Shown here piece by piece: positions 1,368 to 34,540 of a stretch of 37,457 bases of DNA. The translations under genes and the position numbers were made by a program. The stretch covers positions 1 to 37,457 of IMG/VR virus record IMGVR_UViG_3300033141_003291; one strand, written 5' to 3'. The stretch is from a virus. Position 1 is the stretch's first letter. Every line of letters begins with the position of its first letter. The notes beneath the pieces are model-generated. The model had not been told where the DNA came from, did no database searches, and saw nothing but the letters and a program-made list of their open reading frames with translations.

Positions 1368-2207
1368 ATGAAAAGACTCACTTATGATTTTATAAAATCT
1401 CAGTTTGAAAAGGAAGGATATACACTTTTAACTAAAGAATACAAAGATGCTTTTCAAAAATTAGAATATGTCTGTCCTAATGGGCATAAGCATTCAATAA
1501 TATGGAATCACTGGCAACAAGGTCATAGATGTCCATATTGTTCAAATAGGATTAAAAAAACAATAGAAGAAATAAGGAAAAGTTTTGAATCTGAAGGTTA
1601 TACTCTACTAACTGAAGAATACAAAAACAATAAACAAAAGTTGGAGTACATTTGTTCTAATGGACATAAGCATTCAATCACATGGAACGACTGGCGAAGT
1701 GGAACAAGATGTCCTTATTGTGCAAAATGTGCTAAAAAGACGATAGAAGAAGTTAGAGAAGCATTTGAAAAAGAAGGTTATACTTTATTAACCAAAATCT
1801 ATAAGAATAATCTCCAAAAATTGGAATGTATTTGTCCTCGGGGACATAGATACTCAATAAAATGGGCCGATTGGTCTCAGGGATATAGATGTGGTAAGTG
1901 TAGGATAAAGTATTATTCTAAAGAAGACTTAGAAAAGTATAGCAATTATAGAGAAGCTATTTGCAATCTAAGTAATCAAATTTATAATAAATATAGATCT
2001 TACATCAATCCAAATAGATATAGGAGAGGTAGATACTCCTACCATCTGGATCATATCTATTCAGTAATAGATGGATTCGAGAATAATGTTCCAATAGATA
2101 TAATATCAAATCCTAATAATTTAAAGCTAATTCCTGCAAAAGAAAATCTTTTCAAACATGGCAAATCTTATATATCAAAAATGCTTCTCTATCACCTAGC
2201 AATTTAA
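1368..2207 (+). CDS. HNH homing endonuclease with three zinc-finger modules
   Basis: A 279-residue free-standing endonuclease. Three tandem ~65-residue modules fill residues 1-185. Each has an amphipathic helix (..IEEIRKSFESEGYTLLT), a YKN..QKLEY strand and a treble-clef-like finger C-x-x-G-H-x(13-17)-C-x-x-C. The modules resemble DUF723-type zinc-binding repeats of phage endonucleases. The last third holds YHLDHIYSVIDGF, ISNPNNLKLI and an N/K end, an HNH catalytic motif in which DH and N residues bind metal. It lies between the basic gene and the portal gene and breaks neither. It has its own leaderless-type promoter. The final 27 nt are identical to those of the copies ending at 26123 and 32918. 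Confidence 0.85.
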   Translation: MKRLTYDFIKSQFEKEGYTLLTKEYKDAFQKLEYVCPNGHKHSIIWNHWQQGHRCPYCSNRIKKTIEEIRKSFESEGYTLLTEEYKNNKQKLEYICSNGHKHSITWNDWRSGTRCPYCAKCAKKTIEEVREAFEKEGYTLLTKIYKNNLQKLECICPRGHRYSIKWADWSQGYRCGKCRIKYYSKEDLEKYSNYREAICNLSNQIYNKYRSYINPNRYRRGRYSYHLDHIYSVIDGFENNVPIDIISNPNNLKLIPAKENLFKHGKSYISKMLLYHLAI

Positions 2208-2268
2208 TTAAGTATAATCATCTTAATATAATAGATAAAATCTCAATCAATTAGGAGAAAAGTATATT

Positions 2269-3810
2269 ATGGCAGAAATTAAAAAAATAAAGTTAGCAGA
2301 AAGAAGACATCCATTGTTTGAAGAGAATCTACCCCTCTGGGAACTTTACCAATCTGCTGTGCTTGGTGGTGATGATTTTATCAATGATTCTAATCTTTTC
2401 TCACACCGTCTAGAGGAGTCTGAAGACTTTGAGGAGAGATTGGAACGAGCTTTTTTCCTGAATTTTTGCAGTACCATTCCAACTATTTATAATTTCTACA
2501 TTTTTAAGGAAAAAATAGGTCGTAGTGCTGACCCTCTCTTGGAGAGATTCAGAAGAGACATTGATAGACGTAATACTGACATTACGGATTTTATTCGTAG
2601 AGTCGGATTTTTATCTTCCATTTATGGAGTAATGCATGTTCTAGTAGATGTCCCACCAGCAGGTGGTAGAATACTGACCAAAGCTGAAGATAAAGAAATA
2701 TATCCATATTGTAGTCTAATTTTTCCACAAGATCTGGTTGACTGGTCTCTAGATGCGTACTCGAACTATAATTGGGTGATAATCAAGAGCACCTATTACA
2801 GAGATGAAGATCCTACGGTTGAAAGATCAACGGAGACTCACTATAAATTAATCACTAAGACAGAGTGGAGAGTTGAGGATGAAGATGGTAATATCGTAAA
2901 ATTTGAAGATGGAAGTCCCAGTTCAGGAACTAATGAATTGGGAATTATCCCCATCGCAACCATCTATCATCAAGATATAAATAGTGATAAGATTGGTGAG
3001 TCAATGTTAAAAGACATCGTGTACATCAATAGAGCAATTCTCAATTGGTGCTCATGTATTGATGAACAAATTGAGAGACAGACATTTTCTCAACTTGTCG
3101 TTCCAGACAATGGAGAGTTAGCAGAAGAAGACGAAACTGGTTCTGGAGATCCACTCTACAAAATCGGTACTTCTTCAATCTGGACATTTCCATCCGATTC
3201 TGCAAATCCACCCCAGTTTATTTCTCCAAATGTTGGAAATATCAGCACTATCTGGAATCTGGTAGTTGATCATATAAAGGAAATATTCAGAATGGCAGGG
3301 TTGGTTGGTTCCAGCCAGGACTTGTATGTTTCCCAATCGGGTAGAGCTGCCCAGATGGGATTTATGGGTGTCAATTCTGCACTAGCAGACAAAGCTAAGA
3401 AATATCAGAAATTAGAAAATGATATCAGCAGGTTGGCCTATCTCCAGCTTGGAAAGAACCCAGATGACTTTGAAGAAGTTAAGTATCCTGACACATTTGA
3501 TGTGGGTACATTGTCTGATGAACTGGATTCTTACTTCAGAGTAATGCGTGCTGATTTTTCCGAGACATTGAACAAGCAGTTAATGAAGAATATTGCACGA
3601 AGGGCAGTTCCATTGGCTCCGCCAGTCGTGCGTGCTACAATAGAGAAGGAAATTGAGGCTGGAGATGGGAAAATAAGCAATGTTTCTTCTACAGAGCCGG
3701 AAGGTCAAGTTGGTAATCCTAACGTTGACCAATTGGCTGATGTGTATAAAACTACACAGCAAAAGAAGAAAGAGCAAACTAGCCACAGAATAGAAAAATC
3801 TTCAATGTAA
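2269..3810 (+). CDS. Portal protein
   Basis: A 513-residue protein directly before the scaffold and capsid genes, the usual place of the portal, the dodecameric ring through which DNA enters the head. Length and layout fit portals of siphophages: an N-terminal alpha/beta part (about 1-260), a helical stem around 320-350 with IWNLVVDHIKEIFRMAGLVG, then SGRAAQMGFMGVNSALADKAK and a long helix of the wing/stem. The C-terminus is polar and likely disordered. AGGAG lies 11 nt before the ATG, a longer spacing than its neighbours use. No single motif proves the assignment; size, position and the helix pattern carry it. Confidence 0.8.
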   Translation: MAEIKKIKLAERRHPLFEENLPLWELYQSAVLGGDDFINDSNLFSHRLEESEDFEERLERAFFLNFCSTIPTIYNFYIFKEKIGRSADPLLERFRRDIDRRNTDITDFIRRVGFLSSIYGVMHVLVDVPPAGGRILTKAEDKEIYPYCSLIFPQDLVDWSLDAYSNYNWVIIKSTYYRDEDPTVERSTETHYKLITKTEWRVEDEDGNIVKFEDGSPSSGTNELGIIPIATIYHQDINSDKIGESMLKDIVYINRAILNWCSCIDEQIERQTFSQLVVPDNGELAEEDETGSGDPLYKIGTSSIWTFPSDSANPPQFISPNVGNISTIWNLVVDHIKEIFRMAGLVGSSQDLYVSQSGRAAQMGFMGVNSALADKAKKYQKLENDISRLAYLQLGKNPDDFEEVKYPDTFDVGTLSDELDSYFRVMRADFSETLNKQLMKNIARRAVPLAPPVVRATIEKEIEAGDGKISNVSSTEPEGQVGNPNVDQLADVYKTTQQKKKEQTSHRIEKSSM

Positions 3811-3860
3811 CTGGTAATGGAGTTGCCAGAAAACAAAAGAAAGTCGGAGGGCTTAAATAA

Positions 3861-4823
3861 ATGGGTATAGAGAATAAAGAATTATTGGAAGAAGCTGGAA
3901 AGCTTGAGATTAATGTGGATGATTTTGAATCAGAAGATGATTTGAAAGAAGCAATTGAGACCAAGAAAGAAGAAATCCAGAAAGAAAAAGAAAATGATAT
4001 AAACTATTGGAAAGAGAGAGCTAAATATTTAGAACAGGAATCCAAGAAAGCATTTGAGGCTCGTGATATTACCAAAAAAGAACGAAGGAAATTACAGGAG
4101 AAAATAAAAGAATTTGAAAAACAACTTAGTAATTCACCATCAAAAGAAGAGTTTGAAAAAATTCAATCTAGACTTAAGGAAACTGAAGAGCAACTTTCAG
4201 AATACAGAGCAAAAGAAGAAGAAGAAGAATTAAAGAAGAAAACTGAAGTTGAACGAGTCAAGATAAATTTTGAGAAGCAGCTTGAGAATTTCAGAAAAGA
4301 AATGGAAGCTAAACTGGCTGAAAAGGATAAAGTTGTAGAAGAGTTTAATAAGAAACTTAAAGAAAAAGATACTAATATTGCTAGGTTACAACAGGCTAGA
4401 TTAAGAGCTGAATTAATAGAAGCTGCTACTAAGTTTGAAGCATATAATCCTACACAAATTTATTATCTACTGAAAGAGAAATTTCAGTATGATGATAATT
4501 TGGATAAATTTGTAAATCTTATTACTGATCCTAAAACGGGAAAACTAACTGGAGAGTTGGATGTAATAGAGACTGTAGAAGAGTTTCTTAAAGACCCAAC
4601 AAATGCCAACCTTGTGAAATCTTCAGCTAACAAGGGAGGCACTGGTCATAAAGAAACTCAAAAGCCTTCTGGAGGGAAGAAACTAAAGGGCAAAGGGTAT
4701 AATCCCAATGACCCTGAGCTTATAGCTCAAGCTGAAGAAAGAGGTCTTGAAGTTGAAGACTATATTGAGATTCTTCAACTGAGAGATGAGAAAATGAAGA
4801 GGATTAGAGAACAAAAAGACTAA
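3861..4823 (+). CDS. Capsid scaffold protein (coiled coil)
   Basis: A 320-residue, strongly charged protein. Residues about 25-200 form a nearly unbroken Glu/Lys-rich coiled coil with heptad leucines. This is followed by a compact part (FEAYNPTQIYYLLKEKFQYD) and a flexible Gly/Lys-rich tail ending in EKMKRIREQKD, a basic helical end of the kind scaffolds use to bind coat protein. Placed between portal and decoration/coat genes, it fits the internal scaffold that shapes the procapsid. GGAGG lies 10 nt before the ATG. A minor structural coiled-coil protein is the alternative; no protease domain is present. Confidence 0.8.
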   Translation: MGIENKELLEEAGKLEINVDDFESEDDLKEAIETKKEEIQKEKENDINYWKERAKYLEQESKKAFEARDITKKERRKLQEKIKEFEKQLSNSPSKEEFEKIQSRLKETEEQLSEYRAKEEEEELKKKTEVERVKINFEKQLENFRKEMEAKLAEKDKVVEEFNKKLKEKDTNIARLQQARLRAELIEAATKFEAYNPTQIYYLLKEKFQYDDNLDKFVNLITDPKTGKLTGELDVIETVEEFLKDPTNANLVKSSANKGGTGHKETQKPSGGKKLKGKGYNPNDPELIAQAEERGLEVEDYIEILQLRDEKMKRIREQKD

Positions 4824-4851
4824 TCCATCTTGAACAAGGAGGGAACCACTT

Positions 4852-5328
4852 ATGGCACAGGTTCGCTATGGACACGTCAGAGGTCCAGGAAAAGGCATCG
4901 AAGTTCCGCTTACTGCTAACCAGTACTTCCATGAGCGTGGTGGGCATTTTGTGAAACTTGTTGCCGGTAATGCTTCTCTGTGTGCAACCGGTGATGCTGT
5001 CGTCTTCGGATGGGCTGAATCACCAAAACATGCAGATGGCTATAGTTCCTGGAAAGGCTCTGCTACCGCTGAAGCTGACAAATTGTTTGTCATTTCAGGT
5101 CTGGAAGATGTCTTTGAATTGCCTGTTAATGAAGGTAATGCAAGCCTGGCTGCAAGTTGGGTTGGCCGTGGTGCTGGAATCGTTAATAGCGGTTCTACCT
5201 ATACACTTATTCAGAAGGCCAAAATCGGTGGAAGTATTACTGCTTCTCCGCTCTCTATTGTTGGTGTAGATACGACCAACAAGACAGTTCAAGTGAAAAT
5301 TAAACCTGGGAAGCTCCAGGCTAATTAA
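4852..5328 (+). CDS. Probable capsid decoration or stabilisation protein
   Basis: A 158-residue protein rich in Gly, Ala, Ser and Val with a beta-strand pattern and no charged helix, unlike its neighbours. It sits between scaffold and major capsid genes, where head decoration proteins usually lie. AAGGAGG upstream of the ATG is strong, as expected for a protein needed in many copies. Codon use is richer in G+C than in the accessory genes, as in the MCP. The assignment rests on position, size and composition; I see no diagnostic motif. Confidence 0.6.
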   Translation: MAQVRYGHVRGPGKGIEVPLTANQYFHERGGHFVKLVAGNASLCATGDAVVFGWAESPKHADGYSSWKGSATAEADKLFVISGLEDVFELPVNEGNASLAASWVGRGAGIVNSGSTYTLIQKAKIGGSITASPLSIVGVDTTNKTVQVKIKPGKLQAN

Positions 5329-5346
5329 TAAGGAGGTGTAACTTGT

Positions 5347-7688
5347 ATGGCAGGCGTACATCGTAATCAATCAGAGAAAACTGCTCGCCTGCTAATAATA
5401 AAAAATTAGCAGTAAATAGGTTGCATATTTTCTATATCTTTGAGGAAAAATATGGTTAAGTGTCTATTATGTAATAAAGAAATGAGAATAGTTAATAATT
5501 TTCATTTGGAATCTATCCATAAAATAACATTTAGGGAATATAAGGAGATGTTTCCAGAGGCTAAAACTCATTCAGATTCTACAATAAAAAAGATGAAATA
5601 TAGTAGTAGGATATCTCAAATAGGTAGAAAGTACTCACTTGAATCAAGAAAAAAGATGAGCAATACTAGGAAGAGATTGATAGCTTCTGGCAAAGTCGTC
5701 ACTCCTTTTATGATTGAAGATAAGCATGGAGAAAATAATCCAGCTTGGGGAAATAATAGACGAACTAATGATGAAATAAGAAAAACCAAGGAGAAACTCA
5801 GTAAGATAATAACAGATTATACTATGAACAATAAGATGAATTATCAATATGGTAGTTTTATTTCTAATAAGTTAAATAAGAAATTTCATTTTAGAAGCTC
5901 TTATGAGATGAGATTTTTTAAGATTATAGATAGTCTACCTTTTATTGTTTCATACGACTATGAGTGTGTTAGAATACCATACTCTTATAATGGAATTACT
6001 AGAACATATATCCCAGATTTTCTATTGAAGTGTTCTGATAATAAAACTGTGGTAGTAGAAGTTGGGACTATCTCGTTTAAATTATACAAGACTTCTGAAA
6101 TGGAATATAAATATTCTGCTGCAATAGATTATTGTAAAGATAAAGGATTTGATTTTGTAGTCGTTACTGAGGATTCCTTAAAGGATATGGAAGATATGAA
6201 AAATTCGGTGAATTGCTGGGACGACTTAAGCCAACTTTGCCACAACATAACTGGAAACGGTAAGTGTGACGGCTTAAAAAATAAGTTGGTAGTAGAGTCA
6301 ATCAGCAGCCAAGTCCCTGAAAGGTCATAAAAGTATGGGAAAGGTTCAACGACTAGAATTTGATGCAGACCAGCAAATAATAATTCCACGAGCGCCGAAC
6401 ACGAAAGTGATGATATAGTCTGGTCTTGTAGGTGACTACAAGAAATCGAGGTTAAATTCCTTGATGATAACAATTACGTTACCGAGGCCATGAAGAAGGA
6501 TGCCTACGTTTGGTTCTGGGAAAAGTATGAAGAAGTACCTCCCAAACATGAGCAACTTTTTGACGTGGTTCCGTCTGACGCAGCTTACTCCAAGTTCACC
6601 TCAGCTATTGGCTTGGGTGAGCTTCTGGAAAAACCTGAAGGAGAGGATCTCAAAACTGATGCTCCTCTGGAAAACTACACAATAGTGTGTAAAAACCGTT
6701 CCTTCGGGCGAATCGTCAGATTTTCATATGAGACTGTCAAGGATGCTCAGAAACCTGCAAATATTCTGGCAGACACAGTTGGTTCGTGGGGTCGTATGGT
6801 TCCGATTACAAAAGAGAAATTTTATGCGAAGTTTTTCAACTATGGTGCAATGACTGCTGGTAATGATGTATTCGATAACTCCATCACTGGTGTTATTACT
6901 GATTCGTCTGGAGATTTGATCTACGATGGCAAGGCTTTCTTTGCTACGGACCATCCAGATAGGGTTGGGAATACATACTCGAATTATTCAGCATCTAATT
7001 CACTTACGCATTCTAATCTCAAAACGGTATATACGACTTATACTACGACTAACAACAGGGACGAGAGGGGCGAAGTCATTGACTTGCTCCCCGATGTTTT
7101 ATTGATTCCGCCTGCATTGAAGTTTACTGCTCAGGAAATCCTGAACACGACTTTGATTCCCAATAGTGCGGACAATACTACTAACGTTCTTGCAGCCATT
7201 GTTGAACCACTCGAATGGGCATATCTGACCGATACGGACGGTTGGTTTCTCGGTAGGAGAAAAATGGGTTTGATGGCGACACAGAGGGAAGATGTTACTA
7301 TCGATTTCTGGCAGGATGAAACTTCTAAGGATTATTTTGCCAGCGTGTTTACCAGGTTCGGCGGTTGTGTAACCAATTGGAGATTTTGTAATAGAAGTCT
7401 CCCTGAATCGAGAGATTCAGAAAACAACGGGGTGAATTGCTGGAAACTCCATTTCATAATGGACAACCAGCAGCCAAGCTTGAGCAGAAATGCTCTTGAA
7501 GGTTCAGAGACTAGTGGACGATCCCTAACAGAGAATGCTGAGGGAAGTAATTCCACCACGAGTGCCCTGCTCCCAGTATATGGGATGAAGATATAGTCCG
7601 AGCTACATAGTAATATGTAGAAACAGAATTTAAATGGTTCTGTGATAACAATACTGTCTGGTATGCAAACAACATAGCATCATCCTAA
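5347..7688 (+). CDS. Major capsid protein, interrupted by two group I introns
   Basis: Spliced gene for the head shell protein. Proposed exons are 5347-5407, 6479-7384 and 7657-7688, together 999 nt or 333 codons with stop. Exon 1 starts behind AAGGAGGTG with an 8-nt spacer and begins MAGVHRNQSEKTARL. Exon 2 carries DVLLIPPALKFTAQEIL and MGLMATQREDVTIDFWQD and ends GGCVTNWR; it resembles the Mu gpT-like capsid family. Exon 3 adds FWYANNIASS. Both junctions split a codon after its first base, and joining removes the stop at 5407-5409 and the intron-encoded tail at 7385-7596. The 3' splice sites are well supported. The first 5' splice site is chosen by reading phase and is the least certain point. 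Confidence 0.85.
5408..6478 (+). ncRNA. Group I intron 1 of the MCP gene (with endonuclease ORF)
   Basis: Self-splicing intron. Core elements in order: P-like AATTGCTGGG near 6211-6220, Q-like AATCAGCAGCCAAG at 6300-6313, R-like GGTTCAACGACTAGA at 6343-6357 and S-like GATATAGTC at 6412-6420; the R and S strands pair as P7. A terminal hairpin ATCGAGG/CCTTGAT lies at 6445-6465. The last 13 nt, starting GATAACAAT and ending in G at 6478, match the end of intron 2. A P2-like stem near 5427-5441 pairs with about 6186-6199, placing the ORF in its loop. The 5' end is inferred from phase: only T5371 or T5407 fit, and the guide pairing there is weak. Confidence 0.85.
5452..6330 (+). CDS. Intron-encoded homing endonuclease, PD-(D/E)XK type
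   Basis: Encoded inside MCP intron 1. I place the start at ATG 5452 behind TGAGGA; an in-frame TTG at 5440 is possible. Domains in order: an N-terminal Ros/MucR-like C2H2 finger (CLLCNKEM then HLESIH), a NUMOD3-like stretch around GENNPAWG, and a nuclease part with SYEMRFF, TYIPDFLL and VVVEVG, reading as E...PD...E-x-x of the PD-(D/E)XK fold. The usual last Lys is replaced by Gly. The final ~40 residues are encoded by the intron's catalytic core and are probably not under protein selection. It should cut intronless MCP alleles and spread the intron. Confidence 0.75.
   Translation: MVKCLLCNKEMRIVNNFHLESIHKITFREYKEMFPEAKTHSDSTIKKMKYSSRISQIGRKYSLESRKKMSNTRKRLIASGKVVTPFMIEDKHGENNPAWGNNRRTNDEIRKTKEKLSKIITDYTMNNKMNYQYGSFISNKLNKKFHFRSSYEMRFFKIIDSLPFIVSYDYECVRIPYSYNGITRTYIPDFLLKCSDNKTVVVEVGTISFKLYKTSEMEYKYSAAIDYCKDKGFDFVVVTEDSLKDMEDMKNSVNCWDDLSQLCHNITGNGKCDGLKNKLVVESISSQVPERS
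7385..7656 (+). ncRNA. Group I intron 2 of the MCP gene (no ORF)
   Basis: A 272-nt ribozyme. P1: exon end GGAGAT pairs with the guide GTCTCC at 7397-7402, with the expected U-G pair at the cut after T7384. P2: CTGAATC/GATTCAG at 7403-7420. Core: GAATTGCTGGAAACTCC at 7434-7450 (P), CCAGCAGCCAAGC at 7467-7479 (Q), GGTTCAGAGACTAGT at 7501-7515 (R), GAAGATATAGTCC at 7587-7599 (S). A terminal hairpin CAGAATT/GGTTCTG precedes GATAACAATACTG, whose last G at 7656 is the intron end. The core is close to that of intron 1. Reading straight through gives a false C-terminus up to 7596. Confidence 0.9.
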
Positions 7689-7709
7689 TGTTGCTTGACC
7701 TGATATAAT

Positions 7710-7782: not shown

Positions 7783-8502
7783 ATGAAAAGACTCACTTAT
7801 GATTATGTAAGATCACAGTTTGAGAAGGAAGGATACACTCTTTTATCTAAAAAATATAAGAATAATAAACAAAAACTAGAATATATTTGCTCAAATGGAC
7901 ACAAACATGAGATATCTTGGGATGCTTGGCAACAAGGCAGAAGATGTCCTTATTGTTCAGGCAAAATTAGTAAGACCATAGACGAGGTTAGAGAGATATT
8001 TAAAAAAGAAGGATACACTTTATTAACTAAAAAATATAATGGGATTAATCAAAAACTAGATTTTATATGTCCTAATGGACACAGACATTCAGTAAGATTA
8101 CACGATTTTCAAAAAGGAATTAGATGTGCTTATTGTTCAAACAGAGTAAGAATATCATATGATAAGATAAAACAATCATTTGAAAAAGAAAGTTACACTT
8201 TATTAACTAAAGAGTATAAAAATAATAAACAAAAGTTAGAATATATCTGTCCTAATGGACATAGACATTTCACTTCGTGGATTGAATGGAATATTAACAA
8301 ATATAGGTGTCCTTATTGTTCAGGTTTAGCTAGAAAGACAATTGAGGAAATAAGGAAAAGTTTTGAATCTGAAGGTTATAAACTTCTAACTAAAGAGTAT
8401 AAAAATAGTAAACAAAAACTAGAATATATTTGTCAGGTCAAAGATGCCCAAATTGTAATCCTTCTACTTCAAAACCAGAACACGAACTATTTAATTTCCT
8501 GA
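7783..8502 (+). CDS. Zinc-finger array of a broken Vsr-like homing endonuclease
   Basis: Four tandem zinc-finger modules begin this locus. Modules 1-3 are complete (ICSNGHKH..RCPYC, ICPNGHRH..RCAYC, ICPNGHRH..RCPYC). Module 4 reads normally to LEYIC and then loses the frame, so that the rest (QVKDAQIVILLL...) is nonsense. The nuclease half continues in the -1 frame from 8430. About 50 nt encoding the P-x-G-H core and tryptophans of finger 4 appear deleted. The break lies at the end of a 115-nt stretch identical to 32096-32210, where a second endonuclease is broken at the same base. The product as it stands would bind DNA at most. Confidence 0.7.
   Translation: MKRLTYDYVRSQFEKEGYTLLSKKYKNNKQKLEYICSNGHKHEISWDAWQQGRRCPYCSGKISKTIDEVREIFKKEGYTLLTKKYNGINQKLDFICPNGHRHSVRLHDFQKGIRCAYCSNRVRISYDKIKQSFEKESYTLLTKEYKNNKQKLEYICPNGHRHFTSWIEWNINKYRCPYCSGLARKTIEEIRKSFESEGYKLLTKEYKNSKQKLEYICQVKDAQIVILLLQNQNTNYLIS
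8321..8435 (+). repeat. 115-nt exact repeat ending at a frame break (copy 1)
   Basis: Identical base for base to 32096-32210. It covers one module from the last residues of a finger to LEYIC plus CA. Both copies lose the reading frame immediately after it, but continue into different sequence. Confidence 0.85.
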
Positions 8503-9347
8503 AACCTTATTTCTCAGACATAGTAAACAATGACAGGTCTCTAATTAAACCACTCGAATTAGATATAGTAATCCCAAGCAAAAAGACAGCTATTGAGTTT
8601 TGTGGTTTGTATTGGCATTCGGAATCCAAAGGTAAAGATAAAAACTACCACCTTGATAAACTAAATAAATGCAATGAAGTGGGATACAGATTGATAACAA
8701 TATTTGAAGATGAGTGGCTGAATAATCAGGATTTGGTAAAATCTCATCTATTGAACATACTATCCAAATCTACAGCTATCAAAATGAATGCCAGAGATTG
8801 CAGAATAAAAGAAATAGATGCCAAGTCAGCTAGAAATTTTGTTGATAAGTTTCATCTTCAAGGATATAACGGTTCGACAGTGAAACTAGGTGCTTTTTAT
8901 AATGATGAGTTAGTATCGGTTATGACTTTTTCAAAGTTGTCAATCTCTAAAGGGCAGAAAAATATCAATGGAATATATGAGATAAGTAGATTTTGCTCCG
9001 ATACGAGTTATCTTATAAGAGGGATAGCATCCAAACTATTGAAATATTTCATTAATAATTACAATCCTATTAAAATAATCTCTTATGCAGATAGACGCTG
9101 GAGTGATGGTAATCTTTATAAGAGATTAGGTTTTAATTTTGTACACAACACTGATCCTAATTATTGGTATATAACTGAAAATGGTAGAATACATAGATTC
9201 AATTTCAGGAAGTCAGAACTCAGTAAAAAACTTGAACATTTTGATCCCAATCTTACAGAATATCAGAATATGTTAAACAATGGATATTGTAGAATTTGGG
9301 ATTGTGGTAATATGAAATTCGAATTAGGAGTCCCAAATGGAAATTAA
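8430..9347 (+). CDS. Vsr-like (EDxHD) homing nuclease with GNAT-like domain, broken from its array
   Basis: It opens with the stub SGQRCPNC of a truncated finger; TTG 8430 is only a formal start. Next comes a Vsr-fold nuclease: ELDIVIPSKKTAIEFCG, LYWHSE, a K..YHLDK helix and GYRLITIFEDEW, the EDxHD pattern known from I-Bth0305I-type homing enzymes. The second half (IKEIDAKSARNFVDKFHLQG, KLGAFYNDELVSVMTF, LKYFINNYNPIKIISYADRRW) looks like a GNAT/Mom-like fold often fused to this nuclease; its role is unknown. The copy within 32924-34540 is intact and about 70% identical by eye. It ends 11 nt inside the next small gene. Confidence 0.75.
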   Translation: MSGQRCPNCNPSTSKPEHELFNFLKPYFSDIVNNDRSLIKPLELDIVIPSKKTAIEFCGLYWHSESKGKDKNYHLDKLNKCNEVGYRLITIFEDEWLNNQDLVKSHLLNILSKSTAIKMNARDCRIKEIDAKSARNFVDKFHLQGYNGSTVKLGAFYNDELVSVMTFSKLSISKGQKNINGIYEISRFCSDTSYLIRGIASKLLKYFINNYNPIKIISYADRRWSDGNLYKRLGFNFVHNTDPNYWYITENGRIHRFNFRKSELSKKLEHFDPNLTEYQNMLNNGYCRIWDCGNMKFELGVPNGN

Positions 9348-17255: not shown

Positions 17256-18098
17256 ATGAAGAAACTTTCATATGAATATATAAAATCTCAATTTGAAAAA
17301 GAAGGATATACTTTGTTAACTAAAACTTATGAGAATTGTTCTCAAAAGTTGGAATTCATCTGCCCAAATAATCATATACATGCTATCAGTTGGGATGAAT
17401 GGAAGCAAGGTAGTAAATGTTATTACTGTTCAGTAAATGTTAAAAAGACAATAGAAGAAATAAGAGAAGCATTTGAGGCTGAAGGATATACTTTGTTAAC
17501 TGAAAAATATAAAAATGCTCATCAAAAATTAGATTATATCTGTCCAAATGGTCATAAACATTCAATATCTTGGGCTAATTGGCAACAGGGACATAGATGT
17601 GGCAAGTGTAAAAAATGTGCTAAAAAAACAATTGAAGAAATCAGAGAAGCATTTGAAAAAGAAGGCTATACTCTTCTTACTAAAAAATATAAAAATGTTT
17701 CTCAAAAACTTAAGTTTATCTGCCCTAATGGACATATACATTCTATACAATGGAATAATTGGCGACAAGGTAAAAGATGTGGTAAATGTAAAATCAAATA
17801 TTACAGTAAGGATGATTTAGAAAATTTTAATATTTATAAAGAAGCAATCTACAATCTAAGTAATAGATTATATAATAAATATAAATCATATATTAATCCT
17901 CTAAATCTAAAAAGAGGTAAATATTCTTATCATCTGGATCATATCTACTCAGTTATAGATGGATATGAGAATAATATCCCAGTAGAAATAATATCTAATC
18001 CTAATAACTTAAGATTGATATCTGCACAAGAAAATTTTAGTAAGAATGGAAATTCTTATATATCAAGAATGATGTTATATCATTTGGCAATAATATGA
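17256..18098 (+). CDS. HNH homing endonuclease with three zinc-finger modules
   Basis: 280 residues, intact. Modules: ICPNNHIHAISWDEWKQGSK.., ICPNGHKH..RCGKC and ICPNGHIH..RCGKC; the first finger has N-H instead of G-H. The HNH part follows with YHLDHIYSVIDGYENN and ISNPNNLRLIS. It lies between two methyltransferase genes without breaking either. Unlike three sister genes there is no TTGACA promoter and no clear ribosome site in the 41 nt before the ATG, so its expression may depend on the sugar operon. Its 3' end differs from the 27-nt end shared by the sister copies. Confidence 0.83.
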   Translation: MKKLSYEYIKSQFEKEGYTLLTKTYENCSQKLEFICPNNHIHAISWDEWKQGSKCYYCSVNVKKTIEEIREAFEAEGYTLLTEKYKNAHQKLDYICPNGHKHSISWANWQQGHRCGKCKKCAKKTIEEIREAFEKEGYTLLTKKYKNVSQKLKFICPNGHIHSIQWNNWRQGKRCGKCKIKYYSKDDLENFNIYKEAIYNLSNRLYNKYKSYINPLNLKRGKYSYHLDHIYSVIDGYENNIPVEIISNPNNLRLISAQENFSKNGNSYISRMMLYHLAII

Positions 18099-18111: not shown

Positions 18112-18624
18112 ATGATTATAAGAACAGATAGACCAGCAATTCACCAACTTATAGGAAGGGAAGATTTAATAGGAGCAGAAATTGGCGTAGAACACGGCTA
18201 TAATGCCATAGGAATCCTAACCCAACTAGATATTAAGAAGTTATATCTGATTGATCCATATCAAGAGTATCCTAGTTCTGATGGTAAAAGTGTTAGATCA
18301 CAAGAACTGATGCAACAAACCAAAGATGAAGCCTTAATTAATCTTGAGAAATTTAATGATAGAATAGAATGGATATTTGATTATTCCTGGAATGCAGTAA
18401 ATCAAATAGAAGATGAATCATTAGATTTTGTCTATATTGATGGAGACCATCGTTACGAAGCTGTTTATAGAGATATTGAATTATACCTTCCAAAGGTAAG
18501 AATTGGTGGATTAATTGGTGGGCATGACTACAAACCAAGAGAAAAAGGTGTAATTAGAGCGGTTAATGAATTCTTCTCAGGAATTGGTCAAAAAAATTGG
18601 GATTGGTGGACGGTAAAAAAATAA
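18112..18624 (+). CDS. SAM methyltransferase, Methyltransf_24 type
   Basis: 170 residues, the stand-alone form of the domain fused to glycosyltransferases at 13390 and 15059. It has GAEIGVEHGYNA (SAM loop), LYLIDPYQ, DFVYIDGDHRYEAV and GGLIGGHDY, and the family's late WDWWTVKK. Members of this family methylate sugar hydroxyls in antibiotic and surface-glycan pathways; the exact position here is unknown. Its stop shares a base with the next start (TAATG). Confidence 0.8.
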   Translation: MIIRTDRPAIHQLIGREDLIGAEIGVEHGYNAIGILTQLDIKKLYLIDPYQEYPSSDGKSVRSQELMQQTKDEALINLEKFNDRIEWIFDYSWNAVNQIEDESLDFVYIDGDHRYEAVYRDIELYLPKVRIGGLIGGHDYKPREKGVIRAVNEFFSGIGQKNWDWWTVKK

Positions 18625-19193
18625 TGAATAAATCAATTTGTTTAGTTGGTGTCTTTAAAAAAGGAAGCACGAATGTTCCAATGGCTAAATCATTCACAAA
18701 ACATGGCTTCTTTGTGATTCCTGTTAATTATCGAACAATAATAACTACTTATGGAATGGAGTTCTTTAATCAGTTTATGCATCATGTAATGATAAAATAT
18801 GAACCATACTTAACATTGTTCAGCAAATGCAACGGAGTTGACCCAGAAATTGTTTCTATGTGTAATAAGTACTCAAAAACTTGGCTATTCTTTATGGATG
18901 CAAAACCAATCTTGGCTGCCAACCCAGAAATCATACAACATATAAAAAACTCAGATATCTCATCGTGTACAGCAAGTGACATGGTCGAATGGTTTAGGTC
19001 TCAAGGAGTAAAAAATTGCCACCATATAGTTCAGGGAATAGATCCAGATGTATTCAAGCCTGTAGAACCAGAAGATAAATATAAAGCTGATATTTCATTT
19101 TTAGGTACACGAACTCCAGAAAGAGATAAGTTTAAAAAAGCTCTTGAAGATGCAGGATTTAATGTTAAATTTAGTAGAGGAAGAATTCTCTAA
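18624..19193 (+). CDS. CgeB-like glycosyltransferase, N-terminal part (frame broken)
   Basis: Start at ATG 18624. The N-terminal Rossmann half of a GT-B enzyme (CLVGVFKKGSTNVPMAKSF, TWLFFMDAKP, VVQ-like HHIVQGIDPDVFKP) runs to ADISFLGTRTPERDKF, the usual hinge into the nucleotide-sugar domain, then loses frame after NVKFS. The second half continues from about 19166 in the +1 frame. Family members have a few more residues between these parts, so a small deletion together with the shift is likely. As read here the enzyme lacks its donor site. Confidence 0.65.
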   Translation: MNKSICLVGVFKKGSTNVPMAKSFTKHGFFVIPVNYRTIITTYGMEFFNQFMHHVMIKYEPYLTLFSKCNGVDPEIVSMCNKYSKTWLFFMDAKPILAANPEIIQHIKNSDISSCTASDMVEWFRSQGVKNCHHIVQGIDPDVFKPVEPEDKYKADISFLGTRTPERDKFKKALEDAGFNVKFSRGRIL

Positions 19194-19524
19194 GGTTTGT
19201 AGCAGTTCCAAGTTTATGCTTTCAATGAATACTTTTAATAACATTCACAAAGGTTATTTTAGTAATAGATTACCAAGATGTCTAGCTTGTGGAGTTACCA
19301 CTTTCCACTATGATAATACTGGAACCTTGAATGACTTTTTTGAAGACGGAAAAGAAGTTATCTATGTCAAAGATGAATATGACTTGATAGATAAAATGAA
19401 GAAAATTGATGATACCACAGCAGGAAAAATAGCTCTAGCAGGTAGAGAACGAGTTTTAAAAGACTATACTTGGGATAATATAATTGGTAAAATGCTAACT
19501 TTGGCAAAAAGGATTACAAAATGA
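19144..19524 (+). CDS. CgeB-like glycosyltransferase, C-terminal part
   Basis: The donor-binding half: EEFSKVCSSSKFMLSMNTFNN, RLPRCLACGVTTFHYDNTG, LNDFFEDGKEVIYVKD and RERVLKDYTWDNII, closely following the Glyco_trans_1_2 layout. The sense portion begins near VEEEFSKV; the formal start at 19144 overlaps the other frame by 50 nt and is probably not used. Read with the preceding frame it forms one glycosyltransferase of about 295 residues. Its stop overlaps the aminotransferase start (ATGA). Confidence 0.65.
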   Translation: MKMQDLMLNLVEEEFSKVCSSSKFMLSMNTFNNIHKGYFSNRLPRCLACGVTTFHYDNTGTLNDFFEDGKEVIYVKDEYDLIDKMKKIDDTTAGKIALAGRERVLKDYTWDNIIGKMLTLAKRITK

Positions 19525-25094: not shown

Positions 25095-26123
25095 ATGAGA
25101 AAGTTAACTTTAGGATATATAAAATCTCAATTTGAAAAAGAAGGTTACACTCTTTTAAGTAGAGAATATAAGAATAGTAAGCAAAAGTTAGAATATATTT
25201 GCTCCAATGGACATCATCATTCAACAACTTGGTTTAATTGGCAACAGAATAACAGATGTCCTTACTGTTCAGGATTGGTCAGAAAAACAATTGAAGAAAT
25301 AAGGAAAAGTTTTGAATCTGAAGGTTATACTCTACTAACTGAAGAATACAAAAACAATAAACAAAAATTAGAATATATTTGTCCAAAAGGACATAAACAT
25401 TCAATCTCTTGGATTAATTGGCAACAAGGTCATAGATGTTCATATTGCTCAAATAATATTAAGAAGACAATAAGAAAAATAAGAAAAGAGTTTGAAAAAG
25501 AAGGATATATTCTGTTAACTAAGAGATATAAAAATCAATATCAAAAACTTCACTTTATTTGTCCAAATGGACATCAGCATTCAATAAGATGGAATGATTG
25601 GCAACAGGGTCACAGATGTTCATATTGTATGTATGGAATTAGGAAAAGTATAAACGAGATAAAAATTGAATTTGAAAAAGAAGGTTACACTCTTTTAAGT
25701 AGAGAATATAAGAATAGTAAGCAAAAGTTAGAATATATTTGTCCTCAAGGTCATAGAGGTTCAATCAAATGGAACAATTTTCAACAGGGACAGAGATGTT
25801 TAGACTGCTATCTTGTAAATAGAACTAAATACTATTCTCAGGAAGATTTAGAAAAATACAACACTTATAGAGTAGCTATTGATAATCTTACTAATAGGAA
25901 CTATAAAAAATATAAATCATATATTAATCCAAAGAATCTAAAAAGAGGAAAGTGTCACCATCTAGATCATATCTATTCAGTGATAGATGGATTCGAGAAT
26001 AATATTTCAATAGATATAATTTCAAACCCAAATAATTTAAGAATAATTCCTTCAAAAGAAAATCTTAGTAAGAATGGAAATTCTTACATCTCTAGGATGC
26101 TTCTCTATCACCTAGCAATTTAA
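25095..26123 (+). CDS. HNH homing endonuclease with four zinc-finger modules
   Basis: 342 residues, intact. Four modules end in CPYC, CSYC, CSYC(-like CMYG) and CLDC, followed by the HNH segment HHLDHIYSVIDGFENN and ISNPNNLRIIPS. Modules 1 and 4 share 73 identical nt (25129-25201 and 25669-25741), showing internal duplication, and module 2 shares 74 identical nt (25293-25366) with the gene at 1368. It sits between the head-tail connector and a glycosyltransferase gene. The 3'-terminal 27 nt match those of the copies ending at 2207 and 32918. Confidence 0.85.
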   Translation: MRKLTLGYIKSQFEKEGYTLLSREYKNSKQKLEYICSNGHHHSTTWFNWQQNNRCPYCSGLVRKTIEEIRKSFESEGYTLLTEEYKNNKQKLEYICPKGHKHSISWINWQQGHRCSYCSNNIKKTIRKIRKEFEKEGYILLTKRYKNQYQKLHFICPNGHQHSIRWNDWQQGHRCSYCMYGIRKSINEIKIEFEKEGYTLLSREYKNSKQKLEYICPQGHRGSIKWNNFQQGQRCLDCYLVNRTKYYSQEDLEKYNTYRVAIDNLTNRNYKKYKSYINPKNLKRGKCHHLDHIYSVIDGFENNISIDIISNPNNLRIIPSKENLSKNGNSYISRMLLYHLAI

Positions 26124-27529: not shown

Positions 27530-28408
27530 GTGTCAAAAAAGAGATGTCCTAAATGTGGTCTTTTAAAAGATACAAGTGAGTTTTATCATAGATCATATAA
27601 TAAGGATATATTAAGATCTTGGTGTAAAGATTGTGAAAAGAAATCTGCAATTGAATATCGCCATAAGACTGGCAGAACCAAACCCAAAATTACTAATGTT
27701 ATGGTAGATAAATTTGTAAAAGATTCAAACTGGTTATTCAGGGAATATCATATTAATAAGAAGTCTACTAGGCAAATAGCAGATTTTGTTGGTTGTCATA
27801 GATCATGTATTAGGTATTGGTTAAGGAAATTTGGGATTGCTTCTAGAGAAGTTGGATGCACAGAAGGTAAAGAAAAAGAGAGATATTCTAAGGAGCTAAT
27901 CTCAAAGGAATTGCAAAAATACAATTATTTTCTAAAATCAATAGAGATTGATAAATATAGTCATAAAATAATAACCTTCATTTGTAATAGAGGTCATGAA
28001 GTTACACAAAGATTAGATTCGTGGTATAGGAGTAAATATAAGTGTAAAGAATGCTGGATTGAAGATCTATCTGGAGAGAACAGTAAATTTTGGAAATCAT
28101 ATCCCAAAGATAGTTTTAAACAATTCAAATTGTATAGAGCACGTGTACTTCAATTAACTAAACAAAATATAAAAAAATATATTAATTATATAAATCCATC
28201 CAAACTGCCACTAGGAAAAAACAAATATAATATTGACCACATCTATTCTGTATATGAAGGGTTTATTAATAAAGTATCTCCAGAAATAATTTCTAGTCCA
28301 ATTAATCTTCAAGTTTTATGGTACAGTGATAATATAAAAAAGAGTTCTACTTCATGGATGAGTATTGAAGAATTATATAGAAGATACGAATCTTGGAGAG
28401 GTGATTAA
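27530..28408 (+). CDS. HNH homing endonuclease with N-terminal zinc ribbon and HTH
   Basis: 292 residues from GTG 27530. Order: a Cys-rich ribbon (RCPKCGLLKDTSEFY..SWCKDC), a helix-turn-helix STRQIADFVGCHRSCIRYWL near residues 84-103, one degenerate module ending FICNRGHEV..YKCKEC, and the HNH part YNIDHIYSVYEGF with ISSPINLQVL. The ribbon-plus-HTH front end differs from the six module arrays, but the C-terminal half is their relative. Its end overlaps the next basic gene, whose N-terminus looks altered, so the insertion may have trimmed that gene. Confidence 0.8.
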   Translation: MSKKRCPKCGLLKDTSEFYHRSYNKDILRSWCKDCEKKSAIEYRHKTGRTKPKITNVMVDKFVKDSNWLFREYHINKKSTRQIADFVGCHRSCIRYWLRKFGIASREVGCTEGKEKERYSKELISKELQKYNYFLKSIEIDKYSHKIITFICNRGHEVTQRLDSWYRSKYKCKECWIEDLSGENSKFWKSYPKDSFKQFKLYRARVLQLTKQNIKKYINYINPSKLPLGKNKYNIDHIYSVYEGFINKVSPEIISSPINLQVLWYSDNIKKSSTSWMSIEELYRRYESWRGD

Positions 28409-28601: not shown

Positions 28602-28604
28602 TGT

Positions 28605-29167: not shown

Positions 29168-29192
29168 ATTAAAACAAGGAGATGACTTATGA

Positions 29193-29405: not shown

Positions 29406-29509
29406 TGGCTACACGAAGATGTTGTGTAGCAGCAACTCTCCTCAAACGTATAAAGAGAAGAGCTGTTCTATCAAAAAGAAGAAAACCTAGAAAGTCTAGA
29501 AGGAGATAA
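29405..29509 (+). CDS. Arg-rich mini-protein (34 aa)
   Basis: Starts at a GTG sharing a base with the previous stop (TAGTG) and ends just before the next start, its final codons AGAAGGAGATAA doubling as the ribosome site of the gene at 29511. ATRRCCVAATLLKRIKRRAV then SKRRKPRKSRRR: about half basic residues. The tight packing suggests a real gene. Confidence 0.5.
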   Translation: MATRRCCVAATLLKRIKRRAVLSKRRKPRKSRRR

Positions 29510-29510
29510 T

Positions 29511-30619: not shown

Positions 30620-31044
30620 TGCAGATGTCTACAATTCCTAATGAATTTTCTAAATATTTTAACAACTTAACTGCTACACATCCAATTTGTGATGCACTTG
30701 GCACAACTCTCAATGAAGGAAGTAATTTGTTTATATACACTGAACCCGTAGAAGCTACTATGTGTGTTACTATAATTCCGTATGGGGGTGCTCCTCCCGA
30801 ACCGGATAATTATAAATATGAAACTGGAGTTCAAGTTAGACTAAAAGCTAACTCACGAAAAAGAGCAATAGAAACGATGCAAGCCATCATACACGATTTG
30901 CATGGAAATGGATCTGTATGTGCATCTACCAATGGTAAAGTAATGGCGAACCAAAGCTCTCCAATAATCTTTGAAATTCAAGAAGGTGGAGAGAGAATAA
31001 TAACGATTGCAAACTTTAGAGTTAAGCATATAAAGTTAGCATAA
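30616..31044 (+). CDS. Tail terminator (minor capsid protein family)
   Basis: 142 residues. Layout of a tail terminator: an N-terminal helix, NLFIYTEPVEATMCVTIIPYGGAPPEPDN, a strand YETGVQVRLKANSRKRAIETM, and a closing strand EIQEGGERIITIANFRVKHI. The P-Y-G-G-x-x-P loop and R-x-K-A-N/S-x-x-x-A are familiar from phage minor capsid/terminator proteins. It precedes the tube gene by 17 nt, as expected. Confidence 0.65.
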   Translation: MMQMSTIPNEFSKYFNNLTATHPICDALGTTLNEGSNLFIYTEPVEATMCVTIIPYGGAPPEPDNYKYETGVQVRLKANSRKRAIETMQAIIHDLHGNGSVCASTNGKVMANQSSPIIFEIQEGGERIITIANFRVKHIKLA

Positions 31045-31061
31045 AGGAAGGTGAATTATAA

Positions 31062-31628
31062 ATGGCAACTGTGAATACGGACAATTATCTGATAACCGGC
31101 GTTGACCTGTATTTTGAAGCTTCAATTGCACATGCCAGTCTGTTGGATACAAGTGGTACGACAATGGTAGGTTCCAGTTTCCGAACCTCAAGTCGGAACC
31201 TTGGGAATATTACTACTGCTGACATCTCACCCGAGGTCACATATGTAGAACATTTTATTGCAGTGCAAGGAGCAAGGAGAAAAGATAAAACTGTGGCTAA
31301 TCAAGAATCTATTACAATACCTTTCACGTTCGATGAAATTAATGAAAACAACATGCAGAGATTCTTACTAGCCTCTTCACTTGGTGATAATAAATTGGCT
31401 CCAATGCAGAAAGCATTACTGGAAGGTTCTGTCTCACTGAAGGTTACAACTGATGTTGGCAATGATATGGTATATAGTATTCCGAAGGCAATAATCCGTC
31501 CTGATGGCAATCTGACATTCGGAGATGGTAGTGATTGGACGACTGCTCCTATGGTCATTGAAGTTCTCTATTATGACACTGGACAGTGGGCTTCCAAACC
31601 TTACGGCGTATTGGATATGAATCCTTAG
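31062..31628 (+). CDS. Major tail (tube) protein
   Basis: 188 residues, beta-rich, following the tail terminator and preceding (with inserted genes) the tail chaperone: the standard place of the tube protein. NYLITGVDLYFEA near the start and a late GNLTFGDGSDWTTAPMVIEVLYY fit tube folds. Higher G+C and strong expression signals match a highly made virion protein. No sheath gene is next to it, which argues for a non-contractile tail. Confidence 0.7.
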   Translation: MATVNTDNYLITGVDLYFEASIAHASLLDTSGTTMVGSSFRTSSRNLGNITTADISPEVTYVEHFIAVQGARRKDKTVANQESITIPFTFDEINENNMQRFLLASSLGDNKLAPMQKALLEGSVSLKVTTDVGNDMVYSIPKAIIRPDGNLTFGDGSDWTTAPMVIEVLYYDTGQWASKPYGVLDMNP

Positions 31629-31631
31629 TAC

Positions 31632-31659
31632 TTGACAAATAGGATTTAATGATTAACTT
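31632..31659 (+). promoter_or_regulatory. Degenerate copy of the leaderless promoter cassette
   Basis: TTGACA at 31632-31637 followed by AAT..TTTAATGATTAACTT resembles the three intact cassettes, but the -10 is TAACTT and the ATG in the homologous place (31664) opens only two codons. The functional endonuclease start has moved to 31741. Confidence 0.45.
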
Positions 31660-31664
31660 ATAAA

Positions 31665-31716
31665 TGCAGGTCTGACGAGCGTAAGTGGGGAGTGCCTGTC
31701 CACTCCCCAGCCTGCA
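31665..31716 (+). terminator. Two-level hairpin between tube gene and endonuclease
   Basis: Inner stem TGGGGAGTG (31686-31694) with CACTCCCCA (31701-31709), loop of 6; outer stem TGCAGG (31665-31670) with CCTGCA (31711-31716). Very stable, but no T-run. It may end or protect the tube mRNA. Confidence 0.55.
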
Positions 31717-31740
31717 ATCCTAGACAGGAAGGATGTTTAT

Positions 31741-32256
31741 ATGAAAAGACTTACTTATGACTATGTAAAATCTCAATTTGAAAAAGAGGGATATACTCTC
31801 TTAACTAAAGAGTATAAAAATAGTAGACAAAAATTAGAGTACATTTGCTCAAATGGACATAAACATTCAATAACTTGGAATGCTTGGCGACAGGGTAAAC
31901 GATGTCTTTATTGTGCAAAAAATAGGAAGAAAACAATTGAAGAAATAAGAGAGGCATTTGAGGCTGAGGGCTATACTCTACTAACTAGGGAATATAAGAA
32001 TAATAGACAAAAACTAGAATATATTTGTAACAAAGGACACAGAAGTTCAATGTCCATTCATAGTTTTGAGTCTGGACATAGGTGTCCTTATTGTGCAGGT
32101 TTAGCTAGAAAGACAATTGAGGAAATAAGGAAAAGTTTTGAATCTGAAGGTTATAAACTTCTAACTAAAGAGTATAAAAATAGTAAACAAAAACTAGAAT
32201 ATATTTGTCAACTTGGGATAACTGGCATTCAGGGCAACGATGTGTTTATTGTATAA
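31741..32256 (+). CDS. Zinc-finger modules 1-3 of a broken HNH endonuclease
   Basis: Start ATG 31741 with an AAGGA ribosome site 7 nt upstream, unlike its leaderless sisters. Modules 1 and 2 are complete. Module 3 is normal to LEYIC, then out of frame. The -1 frame resumes TWDNWHSGQRCVYC, so about 19 nt encoding the P-x-G-H core are missing. The break follows the same 115 identical nt as in the gene at 7783 but joins further upstream in the lost finger. Confidence 0.7.
   Translation: MKRLTYDYVKSQFEKEGYTLLTKEYKNSRQKLEYICSNGHKHSITWNAWRQGKRCLYCAKNRKKTIEEIREAFEAEGYTLLTREYKNNRQKLEYICNKGHRSSMSIHSFESGHRCPYCAGLARKTIEEIRKSFESEGYKLLTKEYKNSKQKLEYICQLGITGIQGNDVFIV
32096..32210 (+). repeat. 115-nt exact repeat ending at a frame break (copy 2)
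   Basis: Exact partner of 8321-8435. A related but diverged module without the break is at about 25264-25376, which keeps reading into a complete finger. Confidence 0.85.
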
Positions 32257-32918
32257 ATAACAATATTAAAAAGACAATTGAAGAAATAAAGATAGAATTT
32301 AAGAAGGAAGGATATATACTTTTAAGTAAAGAATATAAGAACAATAAAAACTTGCTTAAAGTAAGATGCCCACAAGGACATGAATATTATACAAAATATA
32401 ATTATTTCAAATCAGGATGTAGATGTCCTTACTGTTCAGGAAATATTAAGAAAACAATTGAAGAAGTAAGAGAAGCATTTGAAAAAGAAGGATATACTTT
32501 ACTTTCAACAGAATATAAAAGCAATAAAGACTTACTTGATGTAAGATGCCCAAAGGGGCATGAGTATAGAGTAAGATGGGATAATTTTCAACGTGGCTAT
32601 AGATGCAAACAATGTAAGACAAAATATTATTCAAAAGAAGATTTAGAAAAGTATTTTGGTTATAAAAAATCAGTTCGCAGTTTGACCAATAGAATATATA
32701 AAAAGTATAGAAATTATATTAACCCAAATAAATATAGAAGAGGTAAAAATTACCATCTAGACCATATCTATTCAATAGTTGACGGATTTGAGAATAATGT
32801 TCCAGTAGACATAACTTCAAATCCACATAATTTAAGGATGGTTCCTGCAAAAGAGAACCTAAATAAAAATGGAAAATCTTATATATCAAAAATGCTTCTC
32901 TATCACCTAGCAATTTAA
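32205..32918 (+). CDS. Modules 3-5 and HNH domain of the broken endonuclease
   Basis: The sense frame starts at the stub TWDNWHSGQRCVYC; TTG 32205 is a formal start. Two complete modules follow with a variant strand (NNLLKVRCPQGHEY, KDLLDVRCPKGHEY), closer to module 4 of the gene at 32924. Then YHLDHIYSIVDGFENN and SNPHNLRMVP give an intact HNH site. Together with 31741 this is the longest array (five modules). The last 27 nt match those of the genes ending at 2207 and 26123. Confidence 0.72.
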   Translation: MSTWDNWHSGQRCVYCINNNIKKTIEEIKIEFKKEGYILLSKEYKNNKNLLKVRCPQGHEYYTKYNYFKSGCRCPYCSGNIKKTIEEVREAFEKEGYTLLSTEYKSNKDLLDVRCPKGHEYRVRWDNFQRGYRCKQCKTKYYSKEDLEKYFGYKKSVRSLTNRIYKKYRNYINPNKYRRGKNYHLDHIYSIVDGFENNVPVDITSNPHNLRMVPAKENLNKNGKSYISKMLLYHLAI

Positions 32919-32923
32919 ATGAT

Positions 32924-34540
32924 ATGAAAAAATTAACAATTGATTTCATAAGAAAAGAATTTGAAAAAGAAGGTTATACTCTATTAACTGAAGAATACAA
33001 GAATAGTCAACAAAAATTAGATTATATCTGTAAAAATCATCATAGACATAGTATAAGATGGAATGATTTCAAAAAGGGTATTAGATGTCCACATTGCTCA
33101 AGAAATGCTAAGAAAACAATAGAAGAAATAAGAGCCAATTTTGAAGCTGAAGGCTATACACTTCTTACTAAAAAGTATAAGAATAATAAACAAAAACTAG
33201 AATATATTTGTCCTAAAGGACATAGATGTGTTACTACTATAGCTAGTTGGTCTCAAGGTAAAAGATGTAGAATATGTGCAAATGAGAATAGAAAGAATAA
33301 GTTAAAATTAGACTTCAATACCATAAAAGAATCATTTGAAAAAGAAGGATATACACTCCTAACGAGAGAAGACGAATATAAGAACGCTACTTCTAAATTG
33401 AGATTTCTCTGTCCTAATCACCATGAAAACACAACTACTTGGGCGTCATGGTATTCAGGTAGAAGATGCTCCATCTGTAGTAATAGACGTAAAAAATCAA
33501 TAAGTGATATAAAACAGAGTTTTGAAAATGAAGGATATAAAATTATCAGCAAAGAATATAAAGACAATAAAAGTTACCTTAAGGTAGTGTGTCCGTTAGG
33601 ACATGAATTCAGGACTAAGTGGAATGACTTCCAGCAAGGTCATCGTTGCCCTGTATGTTTTCATCATATATCTAAAGCTGAGAAAGAAGTATTCTCTTTC
33701 CTAAAACCTTATTTTTCAGACATAGTAAACAATGACAGGTCTCTAATTAAACCACTTGAACTAGATATAGTAATCCCAAGCAAAAAGACAGCTATTGAAT
33801 TTTGTGGCCTATACTGGCACTCAGAATCGGCAGGCAAAGATAAAAATTACCATCTCAATAAACTAAATAAATGCAATGAAGCAGGGTATAGATTGATAAC
33901 CATATTTGAAGATGAGTGGCTTCACAAAAAAGACATAGTGAAGAATAGATTATTACATCTACTAGGTATCTCCAATTCTGAGAAAATATATGCCAGAAAT
34001 TGCACAATAAAAGAAATAGATAACTCAACCAAAAACTACTTTCTGAACACTTACCATTTACAAGAATCGGATTCATCAAGAGTCAAACTGGGCTTGTTCT
34101 ATAATGATAAATTAGTTTCAGTAATGACTTTTTCAAAGGGAAGTTTAGCCAAGCATAATCTAAAAGATAATGATTCCTACTATGAGTTGAGTAGATTTTG
34201 TTCGGACTATAATTATAATGTAGTAGGTTCAGCAGGTAAGTTGTTAAAATATTTCATTAATAATTATAATCCGAGTGAAATCATCTCTTATGCAGATAAA
34301 AGGTGGTCTGATGGTGATCTCTATAAAAAACTAGGTTTTACTTTTGAACATGATAGTCAGCCAAATTACTGGTATATAGTTGGAGATAAAAGAGTACATA
34401 GATTTAATTTTAGAAAATCAGAATTGAACAAAAAACTTGAACATTTTGATCCCAATCTCACAGAATATCAAAACATGTTGAATAATGGCTACCATAGAAT
34501 CTATGATTGCGGCAATTCAAAGTGGGTTCTAACAATATAA
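32924..34540 (+). CDS. Vsr-like (EDxHD) homing endonuclease with four zinc-finger modules
   Basis: 538 residues, intact, starting 5 nt after the previous stop. Four modules: CPHC, CRIC, CSIC and CPVC fingers; the third has an insertion (TREDEYKNATSK) and H-H instead of G-H. From about residue 255: ELDIVIPSKKTAIEFCG, LYWHSES, KDKNYHLNKLNKCNEAGY and LITIFEDEW, the Vsr-like catalytic region. Then comes the GNAT/Mom-like domain (KLGLFYNDKLVSVMTFSKG, YELSRFCSDYNY, YADKRWSDGDLYKKLGF). It is the complete model for the broken locus 7783-9347; the nuclease DNA is nearly identical over long runs. Confidence 0.85.
   Translation: MKKLTIDFIRKEFEKEGYTLLTEEYKNSQQKLDYICKNHHRHSIRWNDFKKGIRCPHCSRNAKKTIEEIRANFEAEGYTLLTKKYKNNKQKLEYICPKGHRCVTTIASWSQGKRCRICANENRKNKLKLDFNTIKESFEKEGYTLLTREDEYKNATSKLRFLCPNHHENTTTWASWYSGRRCSICSNRRKKSISDIKQSFENEGYKIISKEYKDNKSYLKVVCPLGHEFRTKWNDFQQGHRCPVCFHHISKAEKEVFSFLKPYFSDIVNNDRSLIKPLELDIVIPSKKTAIEFCGLYWHSESAGKDKNYHLNKLNKCNEAGYRLITIFEDEWLHKKDIVKNRLLHLLGISNSEKIYARNCTIKEIDNSTKNYFLNTYHLQESDSSRVKLGLFYNDKLVSVMTFSKGSLAKHNLKDNDSYYELSRFCSDYNYNVVGSAGKLLKYFINNYNPSEIISYADKRWSDGDLYKKLGFTFEHDSQPNYWYIVGDKRVHRFNFRKSELNKKLEHFDPNLTEYQNMLNNGYHRIYDCGNSKWVLTI

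Follow-up and report, generated by a model that had tools for sequence, protein, structure and literature searches.

Phage endonuclease genes with variable arrays of CapR-like zinc fingers, and a probable role of the arrays as locus-specific addresses

Six genes in a viral DNA stretch of 37,457 bases (the window) were interpreted as free-standing phage homing endonuclease genes, in which the finger array is the locus-specific address and the nuclease half is shared between loci. We assign this reading, which was built by comparing sequences, a probability of roughly 70%. Two nuclease classes would be involved, four HNH-like and two EDxHD/Hef-like fused to a Mom-like domain. In the proposed mechanism, N-terminal arrays of CapR-like treble-clef fingers would serve as the DNA-binding address of each locus, and the nuclease half would be the common part, swapped or homogenised among loci. 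The array modules would duplicate, drop out and be exchanged via recombination between repeats. Comparison of the genes revealed the modularity and the recombination tracts, and in cultured relatives it revealed locus-specific arrays together with apparent exchange of the nuclease halves. We infer that the fingers touch the DNA of the homing site, that the enzymes are able to cut and to home, and that changes in the arrays eventually yield new specificities.

The IMG/VR record comprised the whole window. Terminase, portal, capsid, and tail genes were present, and the window is probably a fragment of a tailed phage. A near-DNA search of its first 25 kb against phage records gave no match. The parts of the six loci are listed in Table 1. 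A further gene at 27530-28408, in the neighbourhood of H4, ended in an HNH-like domain of the same type and contained a single degenerate module. Near-identical TTGACA/TATAAT-like promoters were located upstream of 1368, 7783, and 25095, with the start codon ~6 bases past the -10 box, and this close spacing suggests leaderless mRNAs.

Table 1. Positions and predicted contents of the array endonuclease genes and the associated leader in the window.
Feature	Position	Strand	Content
H1, HNH-type array endonuclease gene	1368..2207	+	3 CapR-like modules ~1380-1901, HNH-like domain ~1902-2204
E2 5' part, EDxHD-type	7783..8502	+	modules 1-3 and first part of module 4; frame lost at ~8435
E2 3' part	8430..9347	+	end of module 4, EDxHD nuclease, Mom-like C-terminal domain ~8790-9344
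H3, HNH-type array endonuclease gene	17256..18098	+	3 modules, HNH-like domain ~17793-18092
H4, HNH-type array endonuclease gene	25095..26123	+	4 modules, then HNH-like domain
H5 5' part, HNH-type	31741..32256	+	modules 1 and 2 and start of module 3; frame lost at ~32210
H5 3' part	32205..32918	+	end of module 3, modules 4 and 5, HNH-like domain
E6, EDxHD-type	32924..34540	+	4 modules 32936-33658, EDxHD nuclease ~33671-33980, Mom-like acyltransferase domain 33992-34537
H5 leader RNA	31665..31740	+	hairpin loop CCTGTC, pairing with GACAGG that overlaps the Shine-Dalgarno region

The sequence-only reading had counted 3, 4, 3, 4, 5, and 4 modules at the six loci, 23 in all, and both the loci and the counts were confirmed by the translations and by pattern/HMM extraction (21 modules intact, two interrupted). 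The modules were slightly shorter than the ~65 residues first given, the measured period being 60 residues (180 bp in the DNA repeats). The helix, strand and C..GH..C..C finger described for each module corresponded to a helix, two paired strands and a finger of the form C-x3-H...C-x2-C. In the AlphaFold models each module was folded as helix, strand, strand, and short helix, and the block pLDDT was mostly >85 inside modules. In the module alignment that the same reading had proposed, the zinc-ligand columns C, H, C, and C were conserved in all 22 of the window modules that were aligned. The mean amino-acid identity among the 21 intact modules was 57%.

The CapR profile (PF21817) matched five of the six loci, with E-values from 1.8e-19 to 1.3e-9 and scores of 38-70 bits against a curated cut-off of 24.2. 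Locus 3 had no PF21817 match in the Pfam search, yet it matched PHROG 559/681 and the HMM of the window modules. Judged by these profiles, the modules are CapR-type treble-clef fingers; according to PMC10448857, CapR itself is a repressor whose DNA-binding domain has been characterised and which is related to homing endonucleases. Overall, the modules were under purifying selection (pN 0.31, pS 0.58; 0.16 and 0.48 for close pairs). Change was about neutral at module columns 23, 24, 36, 40, 42, 43, 48, and 51, several of which lay on the second strand and in loops. A TALE-like pair of hypervariable recognition positions was sought in the modules and none was clear, the variation being spread across at least 10 columns.

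The ends of the proteins had been described as constant, which proved wrong: two unrelated kinds of C-terminus were present, an HNH-like domain in the proteins of loci 1, 3, 4, and 5, and an EDxHD nuclease followed by a Mom-like domain in those of loci 2 and 6. The HNH-like ends shared the motif H.DHIYSV...NP.NL (YHLDHIY...NP.NL) and had PHROG matches; the Pfam search gave no HNH match in these four genes. A Foldseek search of the H4 model (pTM 0.36) against the PDB returned unrelated weak matches only, and it was uninformative because the array is flexible. The EDxHD nuclease was I-Bth0305I/Hef-like and homologous to I-Bth0305I itself (E6 against PDB 3r3p, E 1.5e-4), an EDxHD-family enzyme with a solved chain of 105 residues that lacks a Mom-like C-terminal domain. 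The EDxHD nuclease of the window is Vsr-like and carries the acidic/His motif of the family; residues E279, D281, E292, H299, and K313 were invariant among 32 relatives. In the EDxHD tree, the capsid-site and tube-site enzymes did not form separate clades, and the two window copies were nearest to each other. For the C-terminal domain of E6, the closest solved fold was that of phage Mu Mom (PDB 8bv8, E 1.4e-7), and in E6 this predicted fold is fused to a nuclease and a finger array. The Mom-like acyltransferase domain could act on the site of its own gene, by modifying or protecting it. E6 matched genes in 645 phage records, many of them annotated as homing endonuclease or Hef-like.

E2 (7783-9347) and H5 (31741-32918) were each divided over two frames by a short out-of-frame deletion inside a module. 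In both genes, the break coincided with the end of a 115-bp tract that was identical between them (8321-8435 and 32096-32210). Similar breaks relative to relatives were found in the terminase (29-1109; ~30 residues missing) and the glycosyltransferase (18597-19524; ~9 missing), which makes an assembly error likelier than gene decay at E2 and H5. The two splits are probably assembly errors in the record, and such assembly trouble could also affect the 115-bp identity. Programmed frameshifting at these loci was rejected, since both events were net deletions within a module and the terminase was similarly broken.

Besides the tract shared by E2 and H5, exact tracts of 74 bp (H1 and H4) and 73 bp (modules 1 and 4 of H4) were found, and they stood out against a background DNA identity of ~70-75% between modules. 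A tree was built from 53 columns of 125 modules, drawn from 19 virus records; it was poorly resolved, and in it the modules grouped by genome (64 changes vs. 93 when shuffled). Grouping by protein within a genome was not significant (97 changes vs. 99.3; 31 of 200 within-genome shuffles were as low). A modest signal was detected for nuclease class (8 of 200 shuffles) and for array position (1 of 200). The shared tracts and the tree lent support to the earlier description of modular endonucleases with variable, recombining arrays.

The evidence on array and nuclease half came from eight cultured Campylobacter Fletchervirus phages, which contained 91 ORFs encoding an EDxHD domain; in 80 of these both the nuclease half and the array were intact, and the arrays had 3-9 modules. 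These genes were grouped into loci by flanking DNA; all of them were Hef-type, so the comparison covers no HNH type. The median identity of arrays was 95.5% at the same locus in different phages and 42.9% between different loci, while the nuclease halves were 89.1% identical at the same locus vs. 79.4% between loci. At fixed loci the array had a synonymous divergence (pS) of 0.05-0.13, compared with 0.25-0.43 for the nuclease half, and the 600-bp flanks were 88-99% identical. Divergence climbed at or shortly past the array/nuclease boundary in six loci. This combination of low array pS and high nuclease-half pS at fixed loci indicated that the nuclease halves look exchanged between loci while the arrays stay. 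The simplest reading is that nuclease halves swap among paralogues by ectopic gene conversion and that the arrays remain at their site. Arrays fixed to a locus in this way support a role as address. There is also a passive alternative: arrays of different loci may be too diverged to gene-convert and would then mimic an address. The window modules were more alike between loci than the Campylobacter modules.

The sequence-only reading had also proposed that adding, losing, or swapping modules re-aims the enzyme. At a Campylobacter locus between the end-protector and ssDNA-binding genes, where the flanks were near-identical, three phages had five modules, one had six, and four had nine. The nine-module array was composed of modules 1-4 of the five-module type joined to modules 2-6 of the six-module type. 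These alleles at a single site indicated that gaining or losing modules is not enough by itself to move the gene. Some of the array may be dispensable, and alleles of altered length could have changed affinity or a future target. Length also varied among relatives at two sites of the window, which were compared as the same neighbourhoods and not as demonstrated identical cut sites: downstream of the major capsid gene the EDxHD genes of relatives had one to four detectable modules, and at the tail-tube site the window had five plus four modules and relative G011 had seven in a single gene. In some of the capsid-site EDxHD genes, NUMOD3, MucR-like, or DUF7487 stretches replaced further modules. 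One relative had a three-module gene with another HNH-type domain at the capsid site, and another had an array with NUMOD3. Viral contigs were scanned for the tail-tube and g24342 neighbours, and nothing was found. The earlier interpretation was partly supported, in that the array is the locus-specific half in cultured relatives, which fits an address; re-aiming by adding or losing modules was not supported as worded, given the five-, six-, and nine-module alleles at one site and the one to four modules in the capsid neighbourhood.

The sharpest specificity of I-Bth0305I lies in a short core at the cut. Specificity could likewise reside in the nuclease domain of the present enzymes, with the fingers adding only non-specific affinity or spacing. 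I-Bth0305I dimerises on a long target, and modular DNA-binding regions of EDxHD enzymes have been reviewed (PMC3943268). The varying module number at one Campylobacter site and around the capsid-gene site would also agree with this explanation. However, the nuclease halves were apparently exchanged across loci, and the arrays were locus-specific and better conserved there. Such exchange would scramble targeting if the nuclease half held the specificity, which counts against this explanation, and we regard it as unlikely.

Another explanation is that the EDxHD-Mom genes are weapons, in which the nuclease hits host or rival DNA, the Mom-like domain marks the phage's own, and the fingers recognise the target. 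The Mom-like fold is in line with it, as are several Mom-domain residues that were invariant in 26 relatives and the fusions of Mom to a nuclease (REase-fold) in jumbo phages, which were read as restriction-modification-like (PMC7824862). However, the capsid-gene site is intergenic, being occupied in ~10 relatives and empty in ~9, and the many copies per genome with locus-specific arrays form a homing pattern. In addition, the HNH genes have the same fingers without Mom. A function as weapons is therefore rather improbable. The relationship of the CapR repressor to homing endonucleases could also mean that the arrays are domesticated CapR-like repressors with vestigial nuclease halves, which is very hard to reconcile with the purifying selection on the Campylobacter nuclease halves (pN/pS ~0.13-0.21) and the invariant residues of the catalytic region.

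Tandem CapR-like zinc fingers in variable number also occur on the T5orf172 (GIY-YIG) phage homing endonucleases; unlike them, the window nucleases are HNH-like or EDxHD-Mom. CapR/DUF723/DUF4379 repeats, internal module deletion, and domain swapping were described in the T5orf172 enzymes by Barth et al. (2023), who proposed rapid diversification or retargeting through module exchange (PMC10448857), which means that the basic idea had already been published. The Hef-like enzymes of Campylobacter and Bacillus phages (AR9, CP81, Los1, and PC5) have the same order of finger array, EDxHD nuclease and Mom-like domain and are ~37-39% identical to E6 over nearly its whole length, the Campylobacter phages being distant relatives. 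Each of the eight Campylobacter phages carried 10-12 Hef copies, with arrays of mostly 3-9 modules that differed strongly between loci, whereas the window had only two EDxHD copies, whose modules were similar to the ones in its HNH genes. Two findings appear to be new, namely an array that stays at its locus beside a nuclease half that is exchanged, and the five-, six-, and nine-module series at one site, since neither was found in the literature examined, whose coverage left out most subscription papers.

If the array is the address, the Campylobacter phages offer ~80 natural enzymes at ~20 sites, with 3-9 fingers and with alleles of three lengths at one site. DNA reading by the fingers and the role of array length would then become directly testable, and a new modular DNA-targeting scaffold is possible. 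It would also mean that these selfish genes can maintain a common, functional nuclease even though every copy retains a target of its own. More tentatively, we speculated that gene conversion has carried one cut-and-protect cassette (EDxHD plus Mom-like) to a dozen loci of a genome, each copy being addressed by a finger string whose code is readable in principle.

A leader hairpin was located upstream of H5, and ten related array genes from five other records (among relatives L095, L097, L105, L155, L156, and L018) had it too. Its loop of 6-7 bases could pair without mismatch with bases that overlap the Shine-Dalgarno region, and nine different, covarying loop sequences were observed. None of 104 mismatched loop partners reached 6, and none of 100,000 permutations equalled the observed total, although the eleven leaders were picked by eye and by a scan. 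The scan was passed by 17 of the 37 module or nuclease ORFs vs. 38 of 907 others, although a small number of those that passed resemble A/T-rich matches arising by chance. No such leader was found in 21 Campylobacter Hef genes, and the H5 leader had no Rfam match. The int-alpA family (RF02996) scored in the leaders of some relatives (two in L027 and one in L156) and not in that of the window. In T4 endonucleases, hairpins over the ribosome-binding site exert translational control (PMC2988022), and by analogy the leader suggests translational control here.

Several other features were observed in the record. Two group I introns (RF00028, 85-87 bits) were located at 6153-6442 and 7375-7620, within and adjacent to the major capsid gene, and the conserved capsid C-terminus WYANNIASS was found past the second intron (~7660-7690). 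A TnsA-like endonuclease ORF (5440-6330) overlapped the first intron. Within the structural-gene region, the segment 13390-24335 contained glycosyltransferase, methyltransferase, APS-kinase-like, aminotransferase-like, and epimerase-like genes, as judged from translations only.
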